Of a stretch of 64,000 nt of DNA, positions 46,065 to 61,028 are shown piece after piece; position 1 is the stretch's first letter, and each line of letters opens with the position of its first letter. The stretch spans positions 1,845,697-1,909,696 of the forward strand of contig OY282371.1 in NCBI GenBank assembly GCA_958295715.1, in the 5' to 3' direction. The notes under the pieces are model-generated. The model was given only the letters and a program-made list of their open reading frames with translations. It had not been told where the DNA came from and searched no databases. A program made the translations under genes and the position numbers. This stretch comes from an uncultured Dehalococcoidia bacterium (GTDB taxonomy: Bacteria > Chloroflexota > Dehalococcoidia > Lucifugimonadales > GCA-2712585).

Positions 46065-46070
46065 TATAAT
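46065..46070 (+). promoter_or_regulatory. -10 box candidate for livK
   Basis: A perfect TATAAT, 58 bases before the livK start. No good -35 is found at 16-18 bases; TTATGA at 20 bases is the nearest candidate. Confidence 0.4.
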
Positions 46071-46128
46071 GCGGGTGGCCCTTGGGAGCCGCGGCGGGAC
46101 TCGGAGACTTGGCGAGGAGTTGCGAACG

Positions 46129-47352
46129 ATGTTGAAGCGACGGCGATTCGGACTTTTGGCCTTGGCCGTCGCCGCTATCCTGGCCCTGGGCATGGCCTCC
46201 TGCGCGTCCCAAGACAACACCCTAACACTGGGGCAACTCAACGCCTTCACCGGGTCCCTCTCCTACTTTGGCGACGCCCACCGCAACGCCGTCGAACTGG
46301 CCGCCGCCCACGTTAAGGAGGCCGGAGGAGCGGATATCCGAACTGTGCATCGAGACACCGCCGTCAGTCCCGTTCAGGGTGTGGACGCGGCCCGGGCTCT
46401 GATAGACGTTGACGGCGTCGCCGCCATCGTCGGGGCCCTGTCCAGCGGCGTCACCCTGGCCGTGGCCCAGTCCGTGGCCGTGCCCAAGGGCATGCTCATG
46501 GTAAGCGGCTCCTCCACCTCTCCCGCCATCACAGTCTTGGAGGACAACGACTTCATCTTCCGCACCACGCCCTCCGACGCCGGCCAAGGCGTGGTCTTGG
46601 CGCGGCTGGCCATAGAGGAAGGACACAGGACGGCCGGCATAATGTTCATCAACAACGCCTACGGCCACGGTCTGGCCGACCAGTTCGAGGAGTCCTACAC
46701 GGCCTTGGGCGGGACCGTAACCAGCAGGGTTCCCCACGAGGACCAGCAGCCCACCTTCACCGCCGAGTTGGAGAAGACCTCGGACGGCGACCCCGACGTG
46801 CTGGTGGCCATAAGCTACCCCGGCCAGGCCGAGATCTACGTGCGGGAGTCCCTGGAAGGGGGGTGGTTCGACACCTTCCTGTTCCCCGACGGCCTGAAGG
46901 CGACCCAGATGATGGAGGTCATCGGGTGGGACGTTCTTGAGGGTACACTAGGCACCGCGCCGGGCTCCGAGGACAACCCGTCCCTCAGCGAATTCAAGGA
47001 CTCCTACACGGCGGCCTACGGAGAGGAGCCATCCCACCCGTACATAGCGGAGACCTACGACGCCACCGTGCTCATCGCATTGGCCGCCGCCAAGGCGGGA
47101 ACCACCACCGACTCCGCCGCCATCCGCGACTCCCTGCGAGACGTGGCCAACGCCCCCGGCGAGCCGGTCGGCCCCGGGGTGGATGGAATCAGACGGGCCC
47201 TAGAGCTTATCGCCGGCGGACAGGATATCGACTACGTGGGCGCAGGCGGCCCCGTGGACTTCGACCGGAACGGCGACGTGGCCGGCCCCATTGAGATATG
47301 GAAGGTTGAGGGCGGCCAGATAAGGTCCACCGGGCGGTTCGAGATCCCCTAA
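46129..47352 (+). CDS. livK: Branched-chain amino acid-type ABC substrate-binding lipoprotein
   Basis: A 407-residue LivK/LivJ-type (Peripla_BP_6) protein. The signal peptide ends in ALGMASC with Cys25. Binding-domain words are LGQLNAFTGSLSYFG, AIVGALSSGVTLAVA, MLMVSGSSTSP and MFINNAYGHGLADQFEESY. The family binds leucine-type amino acids but also amides, urea and aromatic acids, so the ligand is open. The gene is convergent with livM and overlaps its stop by four bases; the rest of the importer is on the opposite strand. GAGGAG precedes the ATG. Confidence 0.9.
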   Translation: MLKRRRFGLLALAVAAILALGMASCASQDNTLTLGQLNAFTGSLSYFGDAHRNAVELAAAHVKEAGGADIRTVHRDTAVSPVQGVDAARALIDVDGVAAIVGALSSGVTLAVAQSVAVPKGMLMVSGSSTSPAITVLEDNDFIFRTTPSDAGQGVVLARLAIEEGHRTAGIMFINNAYGHGLADQFEESYTALGGTVTSRVPHEDQQPTFTAELEKTSDGDPDVLVAISYPGQAEIYVRESLEGGWFDTFLFPDGLKATQMMEVIGWDVLEGTLGTAPGSEDNPSLSEFKDSYTAAYGEEPSHPYIAETYDATVLIALAAAKAGTTTDSAAIRDSLRDVANAPGEPVGPGVDGIRRALELIAGGQDIDYVGAGGPVDFDRNGDVAGPIEIWKVEGGQIRSTGRFEIP

Positions 47353-48380
47353 CCCGCGCCTTTGGACCCGGACGGGCCGGCGGTTGGGGGAGGTTGGGAA
47401 GAGGCCCCCAGGCGCGCTATCCGGCGGTCCGGCCCCAGGATGCCGCCGGGACGTATCACGAACACCGCCACTATCAACACGCCAATCATAAAGAAGCGGA
47501 AGTTGGCGTCGGAGAAGATGCCGGGCATGAACTGGGTGCCGCTCCAGATGCCCCACACCACAAAGGCCCCCAGGATGGCGCCCCGGTTGTTTCCTGAGCC
47601 GCCGACTATCAGCATTGCCCATATGACAAAGGTGGCCAGAAGCGGGCTGAAGGTGAGGGGGGACACGAACCGCACGTTGTGAGCGAAGAGGGCGCCGCCG
47701 ATGCCCATGATAACCGCTCCCATCACGAAGGCCTGCACCTTGAACCTGAACACGTTCTTGCCGCTGGCCTCCGCCGCCGTCTCGTCCTCCCGGATAGACC
47801 GCAGCACCCGGCCCCAGGGAGACCTGAGGGCAAGCTCCGACACCATGAAGAGGAGCGCCAGGATAATCAGCACCGTGGCCAGGTAGAGGTAGTCGTGGAA
47901 CTCCGGCGTCACCCATTCGGACAGGAAGCCGGGTATCCGGTACAGCCCCTTGGAGCCGTTGGCCAGCCACTGCTCGTTGAGGAATATCAGGCGCACCGTC
48001 TCCGCCACGCCCACCATGGCAATGGCCAGGTAGTCGCTGCGGAGGCGCAGGGTCAGGAAGCCCATCAGCCAGGCGAGGATGCCTGCGGCGACGCCCGCCG
48101 CGCCCAGGGACACGAAGAACCAGAGGTCTATCCCCAGCCGCAGAAAGCCCATCTGCGCCAAATTCCCGCCGAACTTGAAGTCCTCGAACAGCAGTGGGTC
48201 GGGGGGTTGGGTGGTCAAGAGGGCCGCGGTGTAGGCTCCCACGGCAAAGAACCCGGCGATGCCGGCGTTCAGTATCCCCGTGTATCCCCAATGAACGTTC
48301 AATCCCAGGGCGAAGACGCCGTAGATCCCGGCCATGATGGCGAAGCCCACCAGGTAGTTCAGGATGCCGCTTAGGTCCAC
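47349..48380 (-). CDS. livM: Branched-chain-type ABC permease, LivM subunit
   Basis: A 343-residue membrane protein with eight to ten helices. The LivM pattern is plain: ALGLNVHWGYTGILNAGIAGFFAVGAY, LRLRSDYLAIAMVGVAET, GRVLRSIREDETAAEASGKNV (the ATPase-contacting loop) and a C-terminal VIRPGGILG. It is the last gene of livGFHM on the minus strand, starting at a GTG 30 bases after livH. Confidence 0.93.
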   Translation of the reverse strand: MDLSGILNYLVGFAIMAGIYGVFALGLNVHWGYTGILNAGIAGFFAVGAYTAALLTTQPPDPLLFEDFKFGGNLAQMGFLRLGIDLWFFVSLGAAGVAAGILAWLMGFLTLRLRSDYLAIAMVGVAETVRLIFLNEQWLANGSKGLYRIPGFLSEWVTPEFHDYLYLATVLIILALLFMVSELALRSPWGRVLRSIREDETAAEASGKNVFRFKVQAFVMGAVIMGIGGALFAHNVRFVSPLTFSPLLATFVIWAMLIVGGSGNNRGAILGAFVVWGIWSGTQFMPGIFSDANFRFFMIGVLIVAVFVIRPGGILGPDRRIARLGASSQPPPTAGPSGSKGAG

Positions 48381-48410
48381 GCCGATTTATCCTTCACCGG
48401 CGCCGGCCCT

Positions 48411-49454
48411 TCACCGGAGCTTTCCCACGATAATCCCCCTCGGTCTGACCAGGAGGGCCAAAATCATAATCGCAAAGGCCACCACCGGCTTGTAACTGGG
48501 GTTCATCCACTCCGTGGCAATCTCTGAGGTGACGCCTATGAGCAGCGCGCCCATTAGAGCGCCATGGGGGTTGCCGATGCCGCCCAAAGTCAGGGAGGCG
48601 AAGACCAAAAGCATGAAGTCCCAACCCATAACGGGCAGCAGCTGAGCCTGAAACACGGCCAGCAGGACCCCTGCCGTGGCCGCCAGCCCCGCGCCGATGG
48701 CCCAGGTCCACCGTATGACGCCGGCGGTGTCTATGCCGCTGACCAAGGCCAAGTCGGGGTTGTCGGAGGTGGCCCTCATGGCCTTCCCCATCCGGGTGTA
48801 GTTCAGGATAATGTAAACCGCCGCCACCAGAATAACGGACACCGCGCTAATGAACACCGCGTCGGGCGGCATGCTTATTTCCAAGGGGAGATTATAGAAC
48901 TGGCGCGACTCCCTGGGGTACTGGGCGGTGTCGCCGCCCCATATCATCCGCACCAGCCCCCGCAGGGCTATGGCCATGCCAAGGGAGGTCATGGTCATAA
49001 TAATCAGGCCGGCGCGGCGGTTCCGCAGTCTCCGGTAAATAGAGGCGTCTATCCAAATGGCCCCCACCGCCACCGCCACCACGGTCAGGGGCAGGGCTAT
49101 GAGCACGGGATATCCAAAGGTGAACGGCCCCAGGCCCTCGCCCTCAAGACCTATCCTGGGCAGGACCGAGCCCATCAGGAACAGGCCCAAGTAGGCCCCC
49201 GAAGTCATGTAGTCGCCGTGGGCAAGGTTGGCGAAGCCCAGGATGCCGAATATCAGGGTGGCGCCAATGGCTCCGAGGGCGATAATGCCCCCTATGATGA
49301 TGCCGTTGGCGACCAACTCCATCTTGACGAAGGGCAGGAACCCCACGCCCACTATGAAGGCCACCACGACTAGGGTAGTGGCGTGCCTTGACGCCCAGGA
49401 GCCGACTGTCCGCCTTGCCGAACCGAGAAGACCGGGTGTAGATTCCGTTGCCAT
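48411..49454 (-). CDS. livH: Branched-chain-type ABC permease, LivH subunit
   Basis: A 347-residue permease forming a heterodimer with LivM. Hallmarks are GAIGATLIFGILGFANLAHGDYMTSGAY and the coupling-loop YTRMGKAMRATSDNPDLALVSG, with VRPRGIIVGKL at the end. The N-terminal 40 residues before the first helix are hydrophilic and longer than usual. ATG start, 24 bases after the livF stop. Confidence 0.93.
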   Translation of the reverse strand: MATESTPGLLGSARRTVGSWASRHATTLVVVAFIVGVGFLPFVKMELVANGIIIGGIIALGAIGATLIFGILGFANLAHGDYMTSGAYLGLFLMGSVLPRIGLEGEGLGPFTFGYPVLIALPLTVVAVAVGAIWIDASIYRRLRNRRAGLIIMTMTSLGMAIALRGLVRMIWGGDTAQYPRESRQFYNLPLEISMPPDAVFISAVSVILVAAVYIILNYTRMGKAMRATSDNPDLALVSGIDTAGVIRWTWAIGAGLAATAGVLLAVFQAQLLPVMGWDFMLLVFASLTLGGIGNPHGALMGALLIGVTSEIATEWMNPSYKPVVAFAIMILALLVRPRGIIVGKLR

Positions 49455-49478
49455 GTGTTGACGCGAGGAGGAGATCGC

Positions 49479-50282
49479 CTACGCTCCCAGGTAGAGCATT
49501 TCCAACTCCGGATGGTCCAACAGGGCCGAGCCCTTGTCCTCCAAGCGGTTCTCCCCAACGGCCAGAACGTAGCCCCTGTCGGACATCATCAGGGCCTCCC
49601 GCGTGTTCTGCTCCACCAGCAGGAGGGAGACCCCGCCGCGGTTGATGTCTTGCAGCATTTCAAAGGTGGAGTGCATAATCGCCGGGGCCAGCCCCGCCGT
49701 CGGCTCGTCCAGAATCAGCAGCGTGGGTTCCACCATGAGGGCCCGGCCTATGGCCAGCATCTGCCGCTGTCCTCCCGACAGGCTCCCCGCCTGCTGGTTG
49801 GGACGCCTGCCCAGGTCGGGGAACATCCGGAACATCTCCTGAATGCGCTCCTCGCTTCCCCCCCTGCGGATAAAGCCGCCCATCTCCAGGTTCTCCCGTA
49901 TGCTGAGGGTGGGAAACACGTTGGCCACCTGTGGCACGTAGCACAGCCCTTCCCGCACAATCCTTTGGGGGGGGAAGTGGGACACGTCCGCGTCACGGAA
50001 GCTCACCCGCCCGCTTCTAACCCGCACCAGCCCCGCGATGGCCTTCATTAGGGTGGACTTTCCGGAGCCGTTGGGGCCGATGATAGTGACCACCTCACCC
50101 CGGTTGACGGCTAGGGACACGCCGTGGAGGATGTTGGTCGCTCCGTAGCCCGCCACCACCTCGGAACACTGCAAAAGGGGCTGCGAGTTCCCCCGTGGCT
50201 CCCCGCCCTGAGACGCCGGCGCGGCGGAGCCGGCGGCTTCAGGCTCAACCGCCCCCGCGTCGGGGGGCTCAGGCGGCGTCAT
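49479..50282 (-). CDS. livF: Branched-chain-type ABC ATPase, LivF subunit
   Basis: A 267-residue ATPase. Walker A GPNGSGKST (69-77), signature SLSGGQRQMLAIGRAL, Walker B LLILDEPTAGLAP and the LivF-type LLVEQNTREAL after it, where Gln-Asn follow the Glu of the switch region, are present. It has an extra N-terminal segment of about 35 residues rich in Pro, Ala and Gly, so the true start may be further in. It overlaps livG by 14 bases. Confidence 0.92.
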   Translation of the reverse strand: MTPPEPPDAGAVEPEAAGSAAPASQGGEPRGNSQPLLQCSEVVAGYGATNILHGVSLAVNRGEVVTIIGPNGSGKSTLMKAIAGLVRVRSGRVSFRDADVSHFPPQRIVREGLCYVPQVANVFPTLSIRENLEMGGFIRRGGSEERIQEMFRMFPDLGRRPNQQAGSLSGGQRQMLAIGRALMVEPTLLILDEPTAGLAPAIMHSTFEMLQDINRGGVSLLLVEQNTREALMMSDRGYVLAVGENRLEDKGSALLDHPELEMLYLGA

Positions 50283-51153
50283 CGGCGGCGCCTCCCAGGT
50301 AGGCCTCCATCACCTGGGGGCTCTCCCTTATCTGGGTTGGAGTTCCCTTGGCTATGACGGAGCCGTTGGCCATGCAGATAACGGGGTCGCACAGGCTCAT
50401 AAGCACCTTCATGTCGTGCTCAATGATTACAAAGGTGACGTCGCGCTCCACGCTGGCCCTCAGGATGCTGGCCGCGATGTCCCGCAGCAACATGCGGTTC
50501 ACCCCGGCGGCCGGCTCGTCCAAAAGCACCACCTGGGGGTCAGTCATCAGGGTTCTGGCTATCTCCAAGAGCTTCTTTTGACCGCCGGAAAGGGTGTCGG
50601 CGTAGTCGTTGGCCAGGTGGGACAGCTTCAGGAAGTCCATCACCTCAAAGGCCTTCTCCTCTATGCGGCGCTCCTGCCGGATAACGCGCCAGGGCAGGAG
50701 CCACGACGCCCACACGCGCTCGCCCAACTGCTGCTCCGGCACCAGCATAAGGTTCTCCAACACCGTCATGCGGCCCATCTCCCTGGGTATCTGGAAGGTG
50801 CGCATGAGTCCCAAGTCGAAGGTCTGGTGCATCTTCATGCCGTCAATGCGCCTGCCGCCCAAGAATATCTTGCCGCTGGTGGGCGGGATGGCGCCCGACA
50901 CCAGGTTGAAAAGGGTTGTCTTGCCCGCCCCGTTGGGGCCGATTAGCCCGGTGATGGACCCCTGCAACACCTCCAGCGAGCAGTGGTTCACCGCTCGAAC
51001 CCCGCCAAAGTCCTTCACCAGGTCGCGGACCACCAGTATCCTATCCTGGCCCTTCCAACCGTCTCCCCACATGCTTTCCTGGGAAGGGGCGGCGCCCTCT
51101 TCCAACGGTTGGGTCTGCTGAACTGGGGGGGCCGCTGACTCTGCCATCTCCAT
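50269..51153 (-). CDS. livG: Branched-chain-type ABC ATPase, LivG subunit
   Basis: A 294-residue ATPase. Walker A GLIGPNGAGKTT, signature DTLSGGQKKLLEIARTL, Walker B VVLLDEPAAGVN and switch FVIIEHDMKVL, with the LivG-specific LMRTFQIPREMGRMTVLENL. An acidic N-terminal extension of about 35 residues precedes the domain. It is the first gene of livGFHM. A promoter sits so close that translation would begin almost at the 5' end; the second ATG at 51147 is an alternative start. Confidence 0.92.
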   Translation of the reverse strand: MEMAESAAPPVQQTQPLEEGAAPSQESMWGDGWKGQDRILVVRDLVKDFGGVRAVNHCSLEVLQGSITGLIGPNGAGKTTLFNLVSGAIPPTSGKIFLGGRRIDGMKMHQTFDLGLMRTFQIPREMGRMTVLENLMLVPEQQLGERVWASWLLPWRVIRQERRIEEKAFEVMDFLKLSHLANDYADTLSGGQKKLLEIARTLMTDPQVVLLDEPAAGVNRMLLRDIAASILRASVERDVTFVIIEHDMKVLMSLCDPVICMANGSVIAKGTPTQIRESPQVMEAYLGGAADDAA

Positions 51154-51163
51154 CGCCGCTATG

Positions 51164-51192
51164 AGGATACACCAACGGACTTTAATTGTTAA
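51164..51192 (-). promoter_or_regulatory. Promoter candidate for livGFHM
   Basis: On the minus strand, -35 TTAACA (51187-51192, five of six) and -10 TATCCT (51164-51169, four of six) are exactly 17 bases apart. Transcription would begin within a few bases of the livG ATG, so the message may be leaderless. Confidence 0.5.
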
Positions 51193-51209
51193 GGGCGGCC
51201 AGATATACT
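51181..51209 (+). promoter_or_regulatory. Promoter candidate for the Cache-array gene
   Basis: On the plus strand, TTTAAT (51181-51186) and TATACT (51204-51209) are 17 bases apart. It overlaps the livGFHM promoter, so the two divergent units could compete or be co-regulated from one short AT-rich region. Confidence 0.4.
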
Positions 51210-51242
51210 TAGGTTCATCTCAGGCAGAGTTGGAGGCTATTG

Positions 51243-53675
51243 ATGCGAAGGACGGGCAAGGGGCTTTTTCTGCTACTCATCACCGCCATTGGCGCCCTTT
51301 TGGCGGCCGTGGCCTGCGGCGATTCCCTGACTCCACTACCGCCCAAGTCCGACCCCGCCGCCTTCACCAAGGCCTTCGTTCAGCAGGCTATCGACCGCTA
51401 CGATAGGGACGGCAGGGCCGACACCATCGACTACTACAACACCACGGAGAGCATGGACGGCCAATGGTACGTCTTCATCATTGACGAGGCCGAAATCCTG
51501 GTCTCTCACCCCACCATGCCAGAGTTGCGCGGCACGAATGGCCGGGAGACTCGCGGCCCGGACGGCTTCCCCGTCGGACTTCTGAACCTGTCCGTGGCCA
51601 ACGAGAATGGGGCATGGAGTTCCTACGTGTTCAACAGCCCCGGCTCCGGCGCGCCTGAGTTTAAGCGCTCCTGGCTGGTGCGGCACGACGGCCTTCTATT
51701 CGGCTCCGGCTGGTACGAGCCCGCCCCCTCCAAGTCTGACCCCGCCGCCTACACTCAAGCCTTCGTGCAGAGGGCAGCGGACTTCTACGACGCCGTGGGC
51801 CGCGGTCCCACCCTCGAATACTACAACAACCCTGAGAGCGTGGATGAAGAGTGGTACGTCTTCATCTCGGACCTAGCCGGCGATCTCGTCGCCCATGCAG
51901 CCTTCCCTGAGTACGTGGGCGACAACATCCTAGGGCCTCTGGGCACCGACTCCACCGGCTACGTCTTCGGCCCTCAGATACTCGCCGCCACCGAGGAGGG
52001 GGGATGGGTGGACTACGCCTTCCGCAACCCCACCACGGAACAGGAGGGAACCAAGCACTCCTGGGTGGTGAAGCGCGGAGACCTCATCTTCGGCGCCGGC
52101 TGGTACGAGCCCGGCCCCTCCAAGTCCGACCCCGCCGCCTACACCCAAGCCTTCGTTCAGCAGGCCATCGACCGCTACGAGAGGGACGGCAGGGCCGACA
52201 CCATCGACTACTACAACACCGCGGAGAGCGTGGACGGCCACTGGTACGTCTTCATCATCGATGAGGCCAACATCATCGTCTCCCACGCCACCATCCCCGA
52301 CCTGCGCGGCGTGGATGCCCGGAACGTTCGCGGCCAGAACAACTTCCCCATCGGCCTTCAGGGCCTTGCCAAGGCCAACGAGACTGGGGACTGGTACTCC
52401 TACGTGTTCACCAATCCCGGCTCCGGCGAGGTGGAGTTGAAGCACGTCTGGGGGAAGCGGCACGACGGCCTCATCTTCGGCTCCGGCTGGTACGAGCCAG
52501 CCCCCTCCAAGTCGGATCCCGCCGCCTACACTCAAGCCTTTGTTAAGCGGGCAACGGACTTTTACGACGCCGTGGGCCGCGATGTCACCCTCGACTACTA
52601 CAACACCCCGGAGAGCGTGGATGAAGAGTGGTACGTCTTCATCTTAGACCTGGATGGCGTTCTCGTGGCACAGCCGGCCTTCCCCGAGTACGTGGGCGAC
52701 AACATCCTGGGGCCTCTGGGCACAGACTCCACCGGCTACGTCTTCGGCCCTCAGATACTCGCCGCCACTGAGGAGGGGGGATGGGTGGACTACGCCTTCC
52801 GCAACCCCACCACGGAGCAGGAGGGAACCAAGCACTCCTGGGTCATCAAGCGCGGCGACCTCATCTTCGGCGCCGGCTGGTACGAGCCCGGCCCCTCCAA
52901 GTCCGACCCCGCCGCCTACACTCAAGCCTTCGTTCAGCAGGCCATAGACCGGTACGAGAGGGACGGCAGGACTGCCGCCATTGACTACTACAACACCACC
53001 GAGAGCGTGGACGGCCACTGGTACGTCTTCATCATCGATGAGGCCAACATCATCGTCTCCCACGCCACCATCCCCGACCTGCGCGGCGTGGACGCCCGGA
53101 ACGTCCGCGGCCAGAACAACTTCCCCATCGGCCTTCAGGGCCTTGCCAAGGCCAACGAGACTGGGGACTGGTACTCCTACGTGTTCACCAATCCCGGCTC
53201 CGGCGAGGTGGAGTTGAAGCACGTCTGGGGGAAGCGGCACGACGGCCTCATCTTCGGCTCCGGCTGGTACGAGCCCGCCCCCTCCAAGTCGGACCCCGCC
53301 GCCTACACTCAAGCCTTCGTCCAGAGGGCAGCGGACCTTTACGACGCCGTTGGCCGCGAGGTCACCCTCGACTACTACAACACCCCGGAGAGCGTGGATG
53401 AAGAGTGGTACGTCTTCATCTTGGACCTGGGCGGTGTGCTCGTCGCGCAGCCGGCCTTCCCCGAGTACGTGGGCGACAACATACTAGGGCCTCTGGGCAC
53501 CGACTCCACCGGCTACGTCTTCGGCCCTCAGATACTCGCCGCCACCGAGGAGGGGGGATGGGTGGACTACGCCTTCCGCAACCCCACCACGGAGCAGGAG
53601 GGAACCAAGCACTCCTGGGTCATCAAGCGCGGCGACCTCATCTTCGGCGCCGGCTGGTACGAGCCCGCCCCCTAG
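51243..53675 (+). CDS. Lipoprotein of six tandem Cache-like sensor domains
   Basis: About 810 residues: a signal peptide ending in the lipobox AAVAC (Cys25), then six Cache-type domains of about 130 residues in strict A-B-A-B-A-B order, and nothing else. Every unit has KSDPAA-YTQAFV, a wYvFI strand and the closing FG-GWYEP. Type A has IPDLRGVDARNVRG; type B has FPEYVGDNILGPLG. A and B pairs repeat every 259 residues (777 bases) and copies 2 and 3 are almost identical in DNA. Cache domains bind amino acids and other small ligands in receptors, but no membrane or output domain is present. GGAGG lies six bases before the ATG. It is divergent from livGFHM, so ligand capture for that importer is possible. 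Confidence 0.85.
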   Translation: MRRTGKGLFLLLITAIGALLAAVACGDSLTPLPPKSDPAAFTKAFVQQAIDRYDRDGRADTIDYYNTTESMDGQWYVFIIDEAEILVSHPTMPELRGTNGRETRGPDGFPVGLLNLSVANENGAWSSYVFNSPGSGAPEFKRSWLVRHDGLLFGSGWYEPAPSKSDPAAYTQAFVQRAADFYDAVGRGPTLEYYNNPESVDEEWYVFISDLAGDLVAHAAFPEYVGDNILGPLGTDSTGYVFGPQILAATEEGGWVDYAFRNPTTEQEGTKHSWVVKRGDLIFGAGWYEPGPSKSDPAAYTQAFVQQAIDRYERDGRADTIDYYNTAESVDGHWYVFIIDEANIIVSHATIPDLRGVDARNVRGQNNFPIGLQGLAKANETGDWYSYVFTNPGSGEVELKHVWGKRHDGLIFGSGWYEPAPSKSDPAAYTQAFVKRATDFYDAVGRDVTLDYYNTPESVDEEWYVFILDLDGVLVAQPAFPEYVGDNILGPLGTDSTGYVFGPQILAATEEGGWVDYAFRNPTTEQEGTKHSWVIKRGDLIFGAGWYEPGPSKSDPAAYTQAFVQQAIDRYERDGRTAAIDYYNTTESVDGHWYVFIIDEANIIVSHATIPDLRGVDARNVRGQNNFPIGLQGLAKANETGDWYSYVFTNPGSGEVELKHVWGKRHDGLIFGSGWYEPAPSKSDPAAYTQAFVQRAADLYDAVGREVTLDYYNTPESVDEEWYVFILDLGGVLVAQPAFPEYVGDNILGPLGTDSTGYVFGPQILAATEEGGWVDYAFRNPTTEQEGTKHSWVIKRGDLIFGAGWYEPAP
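52113..53672 (+). repeat. 777-bp near-identical tandem duplication within the Cache gene
   Basis: The A+B domain pair at about 52113-52889 is repeated at 52890-53666 with few substitutions; the first pair (about 51340-52110) is more diverged in its A half. Identity this high over nearly 800 bases shows recent unequal duplication and makes copy number prone to change or to mis-assembly. Confidence 0.8.
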
Positions 53676-54081
53676 CCGCGGGGCGCGCCAAGAGGGATAC
53701 CCTTGGCAAGGGTGGGGTGTCAGGGGGGCTGGCCGTAGCCGGACTAGCTCTTGCCGGTAATTTGCGCTGTTGCTTGGCGTAGTAATAGAGGTGGGAAGAT
53801 GGATTCCCGCCTACGCGGGAATGACGGGAGGGGAGCGAGGGAATCCATTCCTCCAACGCAGAGCCACCGCCCCGAATTTTATCCTCATGCGTAGGGGCGT
53901 GGCAGGGACATTCCGTCCTTTCCCTTAGCAAGAACGAGGTGTCAGGGAGGGCTGGCCGTAACCGGACTAGCTCTTGCCGGTGATTTGCGCTGGTGTAGTA
54001 AGTAATAGAGGTCGGAAGATGGATTCCCGCCTACGCGGGAATGACGGGAGGGGAGGGGCGCGAGGGAATCCACCCACCCTC
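53676..54081. repeat. Repeat-filled intergenic region 9
   Basis: Two perfect first-type hairpins start at 53803 and 54023. Each closes a diverged copy of the family 2 element interior: GTGTCAGGG, CTGGCCGTAGCCGGACTAGCTC, CTTGCCGGT-ATTTGCGCT and AATAGAGGT-GGAAGATGG recur in both and match the 3' half of the elements at 13716 and 14340. No gene is supported. The region lies between convergent genes. Confidence 0.8.
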
Positions 54082-57480: not shown

Positions 57481-59760
57481 CTAGTCCGAAGGAGCGGCCA
57501 CCGCCGGGTCCCCCTCGCCCTCGGCCTCCGCCAGTAGACTTGCGTCGGGGCGCTTGAGGGGCAGTTCGATAAACATCTCCGTGAACTCCCCCGCCTCCGT
57601 CTCCACCCGCATGGAGCCGCCGTGCCGCCGCACAATGTCGTTGGACATGGCGAGTCCCAGCCCGGTGCCCTGGTCCGTAGGCTTGGTGGTGAAGAAGGGG
57701 TTGAATATCTTGTCCACCGCGTCGGGGGGTATGCCGCTGCCATTGTCCCTAACGCTGATAACCGCCGAATCCTCGCCGCGCTTGGTGGTTACCAACAGGG
57801 TAGGCATGTAGGACTGGTGGTCCCCGCCGGCCTCCACGTTGGCGCGGCGCCTCTGGTCCGTGGCGTAGCAGGCGTTGCTCACCACGTTGAGGAAGACGCG
57901 GCCCAGGTCCTGCGAAACGACCTCTATTTCACCCATGTTGGGGTCCAAGTTCCACTTCAGGTCAAGCTGGAAGTCGGGGTCGACGGCCCTGGCGCTGTGG
58001 TACGCCAACCGGGCGTGCTCATCCACCAGATCGTTGATGTCCGAGATCTGCCAGTCGCTGGAGCCCCGGCCCATGCTGAGCATGGCTTGCACTATCCGGT
58101 TGGCGCGTTCTCCGTGGGAACGAATCCGTCCGAGGTTGCCGGTGAGGTCTTCGGATATCTCCTCTATAAGCTCCTTCTGGTCCTTGGTGAGGGTGGCGCC
58201 GTCCCCCTCCTCCAAGGTCTCCTTCAACTCAACCAGAAGCTCCTGGGAAGCCTCCGAGAAGTTCTTAACAAAGTTCAACGGGTTCCGTATTTCGTGGGCC
58301 ACACCCGCCGTCAACTCACCGAGGGCCGCCAGCTTCTCCCGCATGACTATCTGGTCTTGGGCAGTTTGAAGGTCTTGGAGCACGTCCTCCAACTGCTCAT
58401 TCTTTCCCTGAAGCTCCTGGGCCAGCTGCTCCACCAGGTTCAGGCGCTGCACCTCCAGGGCGTGGCGCCGGAACACGTCGAGGGCCGAGGCCATCTCCGC
58501 CACCTCGTCGCGGCCGCTGATGTCCTCCCGCGTCTCCAGGTCCCCGCCGGCCATGCGGCGCATCCATTCTGAGAGCCGTTGAAGCCTACGGACGAGGAGC
58601 CGTCCCACAAAGAGCCAGGCAATGAGCACCGCGCCGCCAACGCTGATGGCGCCGATGCCCAGCAGCAAGGACCGCCCCGTGAGGGCCGCGGCGGTTGAAG
58701 CCCCCGAGGCCTCCCTGACGTTGGCGCGGGCCGCGCTCACCAGCCCGTCAATCTCAACGACCATGTCGACGGAAACGTCCCGGTTCAACTCCAAGAGGGT
58801 CTGCTGGCGCGCCACCAGCCGGAGCTCCTGGTCCAAGATGTTGAAACCGCTGCCCTCCCCGATGCCCAGTTGGGACAGTTGGGAAAAGACCGGGATCATC
58901 TCCGCGTGGAAGGGGGACCCCTCAAGGGCCTCCAGGTTCCGGTCTATCCGGCTAACCACCGCCTCGAACTGCTCCCGCAGCGGCTCGAGGAGGGAGGCGT
59001 CGGAGAGGGTGAAGGCGTTGGCCAACAACTCCGTCGCGATGTTGGCGTCCCCCAGCAGTTCGGCCAAATTCCGGTAGCGGCTGAACTCCTCTTCCGAGAA
59101 GTGTTGGGAACGCGGAGCCGCCGGCGCCCCCAGGTCGCGGTAACCCGTCATGGTGTAGAAGAGCTGGTCGTCTATGGCCGGGACGACAATGTCCGCCAAC
59201 TGGCTCCGAATGTCCACCAACTGCGTCCTCAGGGCGTTACTCTGCGTCACCAGTTCGAAGTAGGTGGGCATATCGCCCTCAATGGCCTCTATGTTGAAGA
59301 TAAGGGTGTCGGCGTGGGCGCGGATGCGTTCAAATTCTCCCCCTTCAATGCCCCGCTGCTCAAGGATGGACAACTGCTCCTCGAAGGCGGCGCGGGCCTC
59401 GGCTATGCTGGCCGACACCACCTGAAACTCCTCTGGGGTGGCGGCGACGGTCAGCCGGGGGGCCGCCGCCACCAGCGTCCCGCTGTACTGGGCCACGCCG
59501 AAGGAGGCCGCCATCTCCGGCACGCTCCCCTCCGTGACCCTGGTCTGGGCGTCGGCCACCCGGTTGAAGGAGAACCAGCCCACCAGACTGGCCGTCACCA
59601 TCAGCGCCACCGCCCCGCCCAGGCCCAGGTATATCTGGGTGGAGATGAGGAACCGCTTCTCCAGCAGCGCCCTCAGCCTTGACTTCAACGGCGAGGCGAT
59701 AACGTGTCCCGCCTCGGCGCCGACGTTTGAAGGAAGCATATCTCTCAGTCGCTTGTTCAC
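57481..59760 (-). CDS. Membrane sensor histidine kinase with HAMP domain
   Basis: A 759-residue kinase: TM1 (about 43-63), a long periplasmic helical sensor (about 70-365), TM2 (about 367-390), HAMP (SEWMRRMAGGDLETREDISG), a coiled coil (VQRLNLVEQLAQELQGKNEQ), an HisKA-like segment with His489 in HEIRNP, and HATPase_c with N629 and DNGSGIP (672-678). The layout is that of a chemoreceptor-like sensor fused to a kinase. The GTG start overlaps the stop of the upstream LivK-like binding protein gene (GTGA), so the binding protein probably presents its ligand to this sensor. No DNA-binding response regulator is adjacent; the only receiver nearby is on the PP2C phosphatase four genes up the operon. 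Confidence 0.92.
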   Translation of the reverse strand: MNKRLRDMLPSNVGAEAGHVIASPLKSRLRALLEKRFLISTQIYLGLGGAVALMVTASLVGWFSFNRVADAQTRVTEGSVPEMAASFGVAQYSGTLVAAAPRLTVAATPEEFQVVSASIAEARAAFEEQLSILEQRGIEGGEFERIRAHADTLIFNIEAIEGDMPTYFELVTQSNALRTQLVDIRSQLADIVVPAIDDQLFYTMTGYRDLGAPAAPRSQHFSEEEFSRYRNLAELLGDANIATELLANAFTLSDASLLEPLREQFEAVVSRIDRNLEALEGSPFHAEMIPVFSQLSQLGIGEGSGFNILDQELRLVARQQTLLELNRDVSVDMVVEIDGLVSAARANVREASGASTAAALTGRSLLLGIGAISVGGAVLIAWLFVGRLLVRRLQRLSEWMRRMAGGDLETREDISGRDEVAEMASALDVFRRHALEVQRLNLVEQLAQELQGKNEQLEDVLQDLQTAQDQIVMREKLAALGELTAGVAHEIRNPLNFVKNFSEASQELLVELKETLEEGDGATLTKDQKELIEEISEDLTGNLGRIRSHGERANRIVQAMLSMGRGSSDWQISDINDLVDEHARLAYHSARAVDPDFQLDLKWNLDPNMGEIEVVSQDLGRVFLNVVSNACYATDQRRRANVEAGGDHQSYMPTLLVTTKRGEDSAVISVRDNGSGIPPDAVDKIFNPFFTTKPTDQGTGLGLAMSNDIVRRHGGSMRVETEAGEFTEMFIELPLKRPDASLLAEAEGEGDPAVAAPSD

Positions 59761-61028
59761 TGTTCCTCGTAGCGCAGGGTTTCGGTGGGGTGGTACTTCC
59801 CGTCGGAGCCTATCACCGTCAGGAACACCGAGTCCGACCCCTGGTTGTCGCCTTCTCCAAACCGGAGCGCGAACCCGTCTATGTCTATGGCCTCGGAGGC
59901 CTTCAGTATACTCAAAAAGCAGTCGCGGCTCACGTCCCTGCCGCAGCCGTCCAGGCCCGCTATGGCCATTCGGCCGGCCATGTATCCCTCAAGGGAAACG
60001 AACCCCGGCGTCGCCTCGGGGTCGTACTCCGAAAGGGCCTTCAGGTAGGACTCGACGATGGGAAGGGAGCTATCCGTTGGGAAGGGCACGACCTGTGTCA
60101 CGAACACCCCCTCGCCCGCCGGCCCCAACTGCTCGGCCAGGGCGTTGCTTCCCACGAAGGACACCGTCATAAAGATGGGGTCAAGGCCGGTGTACCGCGC
60201 CCAGGACACCAGGGCGCCCACCGGCTGATAGGCGCCAATCATTATAACCGCCTGCGGGTCGCCCAGGCGCAGGTCGAGGAGGGCCGTCTTGACCGCCAGC
60301 GTGTTGCGAGGGTACAGCCCCACCGCCACCGGCGTCATGCCGCGGCGGTCAAGGGCCAGCCGCACCCCCCCGTAACCGGCGCGGCCGTAGGAGTCGTCCT
60401 GGTACATCACGGCGATACGGTCGATGCCCAAGTCGGTGGTCAGGCGGGCCACCATCTCCTCCGTCTCCTGGTTGTAGGAGGCCCGCAGGTTGATAATGTT
60501 GTCCCACTTGGGGTCTCGCAGGAAGGCGGCCCCGGTGAAGGGCGCGATGTAGGGGACCCCCGACTCCGCGGCCACCGGGGTCGCCGACCGGGAGGTGGGC
60601 GTTCCAACGGCCCCTATTAGCGCGAAGACGTTCTCCTGGTCGATTAGCTCCATGGTGTTGGCGACGGCCGCCTCCGGCTCGTAGGTGTCATCGAGAGAGA
60701 GGAGGGTGAGTTCGCGCTCGTGGACGCCGCCGCCCTGGTTCACCTCGTGGAAGGCCGCCTCGATGCCGCGCCGCATGTTCCGGCCAAGCTCCTGGGCCGG
60801 GCCGCTGAAGGCCGCCGACTGGCCGAAGACCACCCTATCGTCAAAGACGCCGGGCGTTTCACCGCTGACGGGGGGAGGCGTCGCCGGGGCAGCCGTTGGG
60901 GGAGGTTCGGTGGGAACGGAGCCGACGCCCAGGGAGGAGCAGGCCGCCAAGACCAAGGCCATGGCCGCCCCAACCCCCAGCGCGAGCCGGCGGACCGTTG
61001 GGGTGAGCGGGTGGGACATCCCCTTCAT
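59757..61028 (-). CDS. LivK-type periplasmic binding lipoprotein linked to the histidine kinase
   Basis: A 423-residue Peripla_BP_6 protein. The lipobox is VLAACS with the Cys near residue 30, followed by a Pro/Thr/Ala linker. Binding-domain words are FGQSAAFSGPAQELGRNMRRGIEAAF, ALIGAVGTPTSRSATPVA, PYIAPFTGAAFLRD and VMYQDDSYGRAGY. No permease or ATPase gene is adjacent; instead it overlaps the histidine kinase gene by four bases and its ATG directly follows the stop of the RsbW-like gene. This points to signalling rather than transport. Confidence 0.9.
   Translation of the reverse strand: MKGMSHPLTPTVRRLALGVGAAMALVLAACSSLGVGSVPTEPPPTAAPATPPPVSGETPGVFDDRVVFGQSAAFSGPAQELGRNMRRGIEAAFHEVNQGGGVHERELTLLSLDDTYEPEAAVANTMELIDQENVFALIGAVGTPTSRSATPVAAESGVPYIAPFTGAAFLRDPKWDNIINLRASYNQETEEMVARLTTDLGIDRIAVMYQDDSYGRAGYGGVRLALDRRGMTPVAVGLYPRNTLAVKTALLDLRLGDPQAVIMIGAYQPVGALVSWARYTGLDPIFMTVSFVGSNALAEQLGPAGEGVFVTQVVPFPTDSSLPIVESYLKALSEYDPEATPGFVSLEGYMAGRMAIAGLDGCGRDVSRDCFLSILKASEAIDIDGFALRFGEGDNQGSDSVFLTVIGSDGKYHPTETLRYEEQ

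Follow-up and report, generated by a model that had tools for sequence, protein, structure and literature searches.

Cache domains are classically sensors. The sCache_2 (PF17200) proteins PscD, McpP and Adeh_3718 each contribute one unit to a chemoreceptor with an MCP output, and in the PscD-propionate complex the carboxylate is contacted by Tyr90, His103, Tyr143 and Lys156 (PMC5062169). A census of this family listed 2243 proteins, 1921 of them with a listed output (HK, MCP, GCD or SP; Upadhyay et al., PMC4822843), which leaves output-less members implicit but undescribed in that work, and we found no published description of anchored Cache-only arrays in the literature searched, from which subscription papers were mostly excluded. 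Tandem units of the sCache_2 type also occur in dCache_2 (PF08269), where two modules form one receptor sensor. Animal alpha2-delta calcium-channel subunits and CACHD1 are anchored extracellular Cache proteins without signalling output that partner a transport protein, alpha2-delta being a GPI-anchored channel modulator with four Cache domains (PMC9901441). Likewise, HAAT or LivK substrate-binding lipoproteins are surface binding proteins encoded beside an ABC importer.

Here we describe a gene in the window (the whole 64,000-nucleotide stretch of DNA that was analysed), from a bacterium of the SAR202 type (Chloroflexota), encoding a predicted lipoprotein composed of six Cache units (Table 1). 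Its units have the fold and the Tyr-His-Tyr-Lys carboxylate clamp in common with PscD, McpP and Adeh_3718, whereas the protein as a whole differs in having six units, a predicted lipid anchor and no output. Unlike the modules of dCache_2, the six units here are repeated head to tail, each with an N-terminal helix of its own. Kinship with alpha2-delta and CACHD1, which combine dCache_1 with VWA domains, is confined to the Cache superfamily, and the partner of the array is putative. The HAAT-type binding lipoproteins have an unrelated fold, and the importer beside the array already has one.

Table 1. Features of the array locus, with positions in the window.
Feature	Position	Strand	Basis
HAAT (Leu/Ile/Val-binding) type substrate-binding protein, importer's own by position	46069..47352	+	Peripla_BP_6 1.5e-44; nearest solved structure 3td9
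LivM, LivH, LivF and LivG of HAAT-type ABC importer, divergent from array	47349..51153	-	Same arrangement in L055
Intergenic region common to array and livG, 89 bp	51154..51242	.	Equivalent in G038 is 99 bp
Six-Cache lipoprotein gene, 810 aa	51243..53675	+	Open frame, Pfam, repeat layout
Signal peptide and lipobox, lipidated Cys25 predicted	51243..51317	+	Direct reading; Lgt and LspA in genome
Cache unit 1, type A, Tyr-His-Tyr-Lys pocket complete	51339..51725	+	Units, tree, pocket alignment
Cache unit 2, type B, pocket complete	51726..52115	+	Units, tree, pocket alignment
Cache unit 3, type A, pocket complete	52116..52502	+	Units, tree, pocket alignment, structure
Cache unit 4, type B, pocket His to Gln	52503..52892	+	Units, tree, pocket alignment, structure
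Cache unit 5, type A, pocket complete	52893..53279	+	Units, tree, pocket alignment
Cache unit 6, type B, pocket His to Gln	53280..53672	+	Units, tree, pocket alignment

The array gene and its repeat units

The array gene starts with an ATG at 51243, 6 nt downstream of a GGAGG ribosome-binding site (51232-51236), and ends with a stop codon at 53673-53675. Its product comprises a signal peptide, a short linker and six units that reach the very C-terminus. The first-pass annotation had described it as a lipoprotein without an output domain, and both points held on inspection, the lipoprotein as a prediction: the signal peptide MRRTGKGLFLLLITAIGALLAAVAC is consistent with a lipobox (AAVAC, residues 21-25) in which Cys25 would be lipidated, with both Lgt and LspA encoded in the same genome, and an N-terminal lipoprotein signal was the only such element found, with no output domain, no transmembrane helices flanking the sensor and nothing credible in Pfam outside the Cache clan. 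Weak, below cut-off matches to FlgE_D2, 2-oxogl_dehyd_N and Lipid_bd lay inside the Cache units and were discarded, and three antisense frames on the - strand (51336-51686, 51930-52535 and 52644-53312) were dismissed as mirror frames of the GC-rich coding repeat. In the intergenic region one sigma-70-like site was found, on the - strand (51192-51164), and no Rfam elements were detected between 45500 and 61500. Downstream of the array, a palindromic REP-like repeat, GGATTCCCGCCTACGCGGGAATGACGGG, is present at 53801-53828 and 54021-54048 in a duplicated stretch with a spacing of ~220 bp; it has 538 copies at ≤3 mismatches in the 2.4-Mb genome, with none for a reversed control.

The units are 129 or 130 residues long, spaced at 387 or 390 bp in the DNA, and alternate A-B-A-B-A-B with a pair period of 777 bp, matching the 259-residue period that had been read from the sequence at first. 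Between pair copies 2 and 3 there are 34 differences in 777 bases (95.6% DNA identity), so that calling them nearly identical was fair but not exact, while copy 1 shows 102-107 base differences from the others. Comparison of copies 2 and 3 gave a dN of 0.017 and a dS of 0.147 (dN/dS ~0.12), reflecting purifying selection, and with the divergence between pairs this identifies them as real, selected coding repeats. The similarity of pairs 2 and 3 could have pointed to an error of copy number in the assembly, with a true gene of one or two pairs; however, the pairs differ at 34-107 positions under purifying selection, the genome was assembled into two contigs, the window lying in one of 2.35 Mb, and six- and eight-unit arrays are present in other genomes, which makes such an artefact very unlikely indeed.

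In a tree of 78 units, built on few columns and with many forks unresolved, window units 1, 3 and 5 formed one clade and units 2, 4 and 6 another, each with 100/99 support. The two classes are thus genuine, as first proposed, and the pair multiplied within the lineage of the window. A like alternation of units 1/3/5 against 2/4/6 arose independently in another genome (G079), and in an eight-unit array (G071) seven of the eight units derive from a single type; together these patterns indicate that the A and B types predate the array and that array length is labile.

Cache fold, pocket residues and relatives

Pfam matched sCache_2 in six stretches (E=5.7e-40; 137.2 bits against a gathering score of 25), with the dCache_2 profile also matching, and found neither another credible domain nor a match to the Peripla_BP fold of HAAT substrate-binding proteins. 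Using AlphaFold with 55 sequences, an A-B pair (units 3-4) was modelled with a pLDDT of 97.3 and a pTM of 0.91. The whole protein showed the same elements six times (mean pLDDT 89.3), but at a pTM of only 0.49 the model does not fix how the units are placed relative to one another. A Foldseek search of the PDB returned single Cache sensors (2qhk and 4exo, E ~1e-7, TMt 0.67-0.69; TlpB, 4k08 and 5g4y), which bears out the earlier assignment of the units to the Cache fold.

When the units were aligned by sequence to the PscD contacts, Y-H-Y-K was found in units 1, 2, 3 and 5 and Y-Q-Y-K in units 4 and 6, although in this mapping position 126 is changed and PscD Trp92 and Trp145 are both Phe. Of 110 units in the window and its relatives, 84 keep all four clamp residues, as do 47 of 75 units from more distant Chloroflexota, and the pocket residues rank 8, 14, 16 and 33 of 127 columns by conservation, with the three non-His contacts in the top 16. 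In five of six six-unit arrays (the exception being G079), two or three units carry Gln or Asn in place of His, a pattern suggesting that different pocket types are combined in long arrays. Judged from these pocket residues, the ligands of the array are probably small carboxylates. The first-pass annotation had suggested a ligand trap: pocket conservation, with complete pockets in four of the six units, and relatives that are anchored binding arrays support a binding role, whereas capture is a further step that we infer.

The same annotation implied that the architecture was unique, but a search for other anchored Cache-only proteins within Chloroflexota showed them to be widespread, with relatives in 24 of 98 related genomes and in 31 of 301 genomes taken from the phylum as a whole. 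Those relatives that carry a name are SAR202 MAGs, placed by NCBI in Dehalococcoidia, Chloroflexota; one scan of genome contigs gave only two close SAR202 relatives. The genome of the window itself encodes a single paralogue (C1:314085, L069), which has two units and a hydrophobic helix at its N-terminus, and every sCache_2 match in this genome falls in these two output-less proteins. Relatives have one to eight units, and nearly all start with a lipobox or hydrophobic helix and end at or just past the last Cache unit. In many, the anchor is followed by a stalk of coiled-coil (L053, L055), collagen-like (L032, L058; Pfam Collagen 1e-13 in L058) or Pro/Thr-rich (L044, L060, L061) type. Fusions were also found, to RCC1 and PPC domains in L049 and to a glucose/sorbosone dehydrogenase (GSDH) in L043 (7093-9525). 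Loci L175-L180 share a conserved Cys-containing N-terminal stretch of ~110 residues (CxFVLGFxALxAxIPDxVGxCxENE...) before the Cache units, for which L175 gave no Pfam match.

Transporter genes beside the arrays

The livGFHM operon is indeed divergent from the array gene, as noted at first, with the livG start at 51153, 89 bp from the array start. The same gene order (SBP, LivMHFG, array) recurs with a 99-bp spacing in G038 (L055), a genome from another family of the same order, where the array likewise has six units but a helix anchor and a coiled-coil stalk, unlike the predicted lipid anchor in the window. We examined a general partnership through LivM and SBP searches and rejected it, since of the 16 genomes that encode an orthologous LivM only two, that of the window and G038, have the array next to livGFHM, and the other 14 have no array beside the operon. 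The gene arrangement behind the partnership first suggested for the window is therefore a lineage trait, shared with G038.

A stronger transporter link was seen for a separate array type of four units, which lies directly beside an NCS2 nucleobase-type permease (Xan_ur_permease, 4.7e-28) in 24 loci, most of them convergent, three divergent and one tandem, with three further loci of this type cut by contig ends. The permeases of the 24 loci share 58-100% identity with a representative, and the first or last unit of their arrays often has no pocket residues. Adjacency has survived rearrangement and is retained across three orientations, which argues for a functional tie between four-unit array and permease; two genomes (G339 and G373) also carry a second array without the permease. 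A C-terminal extension of ~170 residues is present on the NCS2 permease of L036 (9751-11460), L177 (9521-11281) and related loci; in L177 it weakly resembles HATPase_c_2 (0.017, below cut-off), and it may be a regulatory tail.

Possible roles of the array

Signalling by the array protein itself is excluded by its architecture. With no output domain in the array, and with no MCPsignal domain or chemoreceptor found in its own genome, the signalling role of its Cache domains would have been lost. Since similar arrays are widespread in the phylum and some lie beside importer genes, these sensor domains probably now bind or capture nutrients. Our leading reading, held tentatively and at a little under an even chance, is that the protein is a lipid-anchored extracytoplasmic ligand-binding array acting as an importer accessory, probably for small carboxylates. 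Six single-Cache units with pockets of the small-carboxylate type would run head to tail from the lipidated cysteine, and their most likely ligands at the cell surface would be small organic acids or anionic nutrients of a similar kind. The array could then serve the adjoining importer (livGFHM in the window, the NCS2 permease for the related array type), either by keeping a store or buffer of substrate close to the permease or, once loaded, by making contact with it. Several observations weigh against an importer accessory. A HAAT binding protein already belongs to the importer, the HAAT family does not usually take C2-C3 carboxylates, and the operon stands without an adjoining array in the 14 genomes noted above. 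NCS2-linked arrays belong to another subfamily, so that link holds by analogy only, and many arrays adjoin neither transporter. Avidity also needs polyvalent ligands, and for small monovalent ones six sites would add capacity only.

The array might instead act as a co-receptor that, once it has bound ligand, reports in trans to a histidine kinase, whether membrane-bound or soluble, much as separate binding proteins report to LuxQ or TorS. The classic sensor role of Cache domains speaks for this, as do the hybrid histidine kinases that adjoin Cache-only genes in G095 (L072, 3-103 bp) and G187 (L168, 147 bp) and a TorS-like kinase gene in the window, 4 kb from the array, that overlaps a binding-protein gene. 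However, the window array has no kinase directly beside it, an adjoining kinase scanned at another locus had GAF/PAS and not extracytoplasmic domains in Pfam, and clustering of neighbouring frames revealed no conserved kinase neighbour across arrays; a co-receptor is credible but on the unlikely side. An adhesin or surface coat, in which the units form a modular rod binding a surface or polymer and small-molecule binding is secondary, would fit the variable unit number (1-8), tandem duplication and interchangeable stalks, which resemble surface-display proteins, and the GSDH or RCC1/PPC fusions. It is nonetheless unlikely, given single-unit forms and pocket residues at conserved columns that a pure spacer would not need. 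The importer accessory is preferred to both because transporters recur beside arrays more than any other neighbour, but for the subfamily of the window this amounts to two loci.

The adjacency of array and permease (24 + 2 loci) would equally suit a regulatory accessory that gates or stabilises the permease without delivering substrate, for which alpha2-delta offers a precedent of anchored Cache proteins modulating a channel (PMC9901441). This would be by analogy only, between sCache_2 units and a dCache_1 protein with a von Willebrand domain, and we consider it slightly more doubtful than an adhesin. A bolder proposal, and a long shot, is that anchored strings of carboxylate-clamp Cache units are multivalent traps for poly-carboxylated organic matter, with differing A and B specificities and importer partners, so that a Chloroflexota sensor was turned into an uptake binder. 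Carboxyl-rich alicyclic molecules would be a speculative example of such matter; they belong to the recalcitrant organic matter whose oxidation is proposed for SAR202 bacteria, a group discussed in connection with such matter in PMC5395668 and PMC6946804.

Anchored Cache-only arrays thus form a widespread Chloroflexota group that has no signalling part, retains its pockets and has recurring transporter neighbours, in host bacteria thought important in deep-ocean carbon turnover. If nutrients are what they bind, a sensor fold would have become an uptake accessory with an easily testable ligand class.

Two gene clusters with kinases were also recorded. In the window, the TorS-like histidine kinase gene (57481-61028) has a 4-base overlap with a gene for a HAAT-type binding protein, and the two may form a binding-protein-coupled sensor kinase. 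In G095 (L072; 2973-3512, 7679-11251 and 11967-15939), Cache-only proteins are interleaved with hybrid GAF-HisKA-receiver-wHTH kinases, and this cluster also contains a more distant NCS2-like permease.
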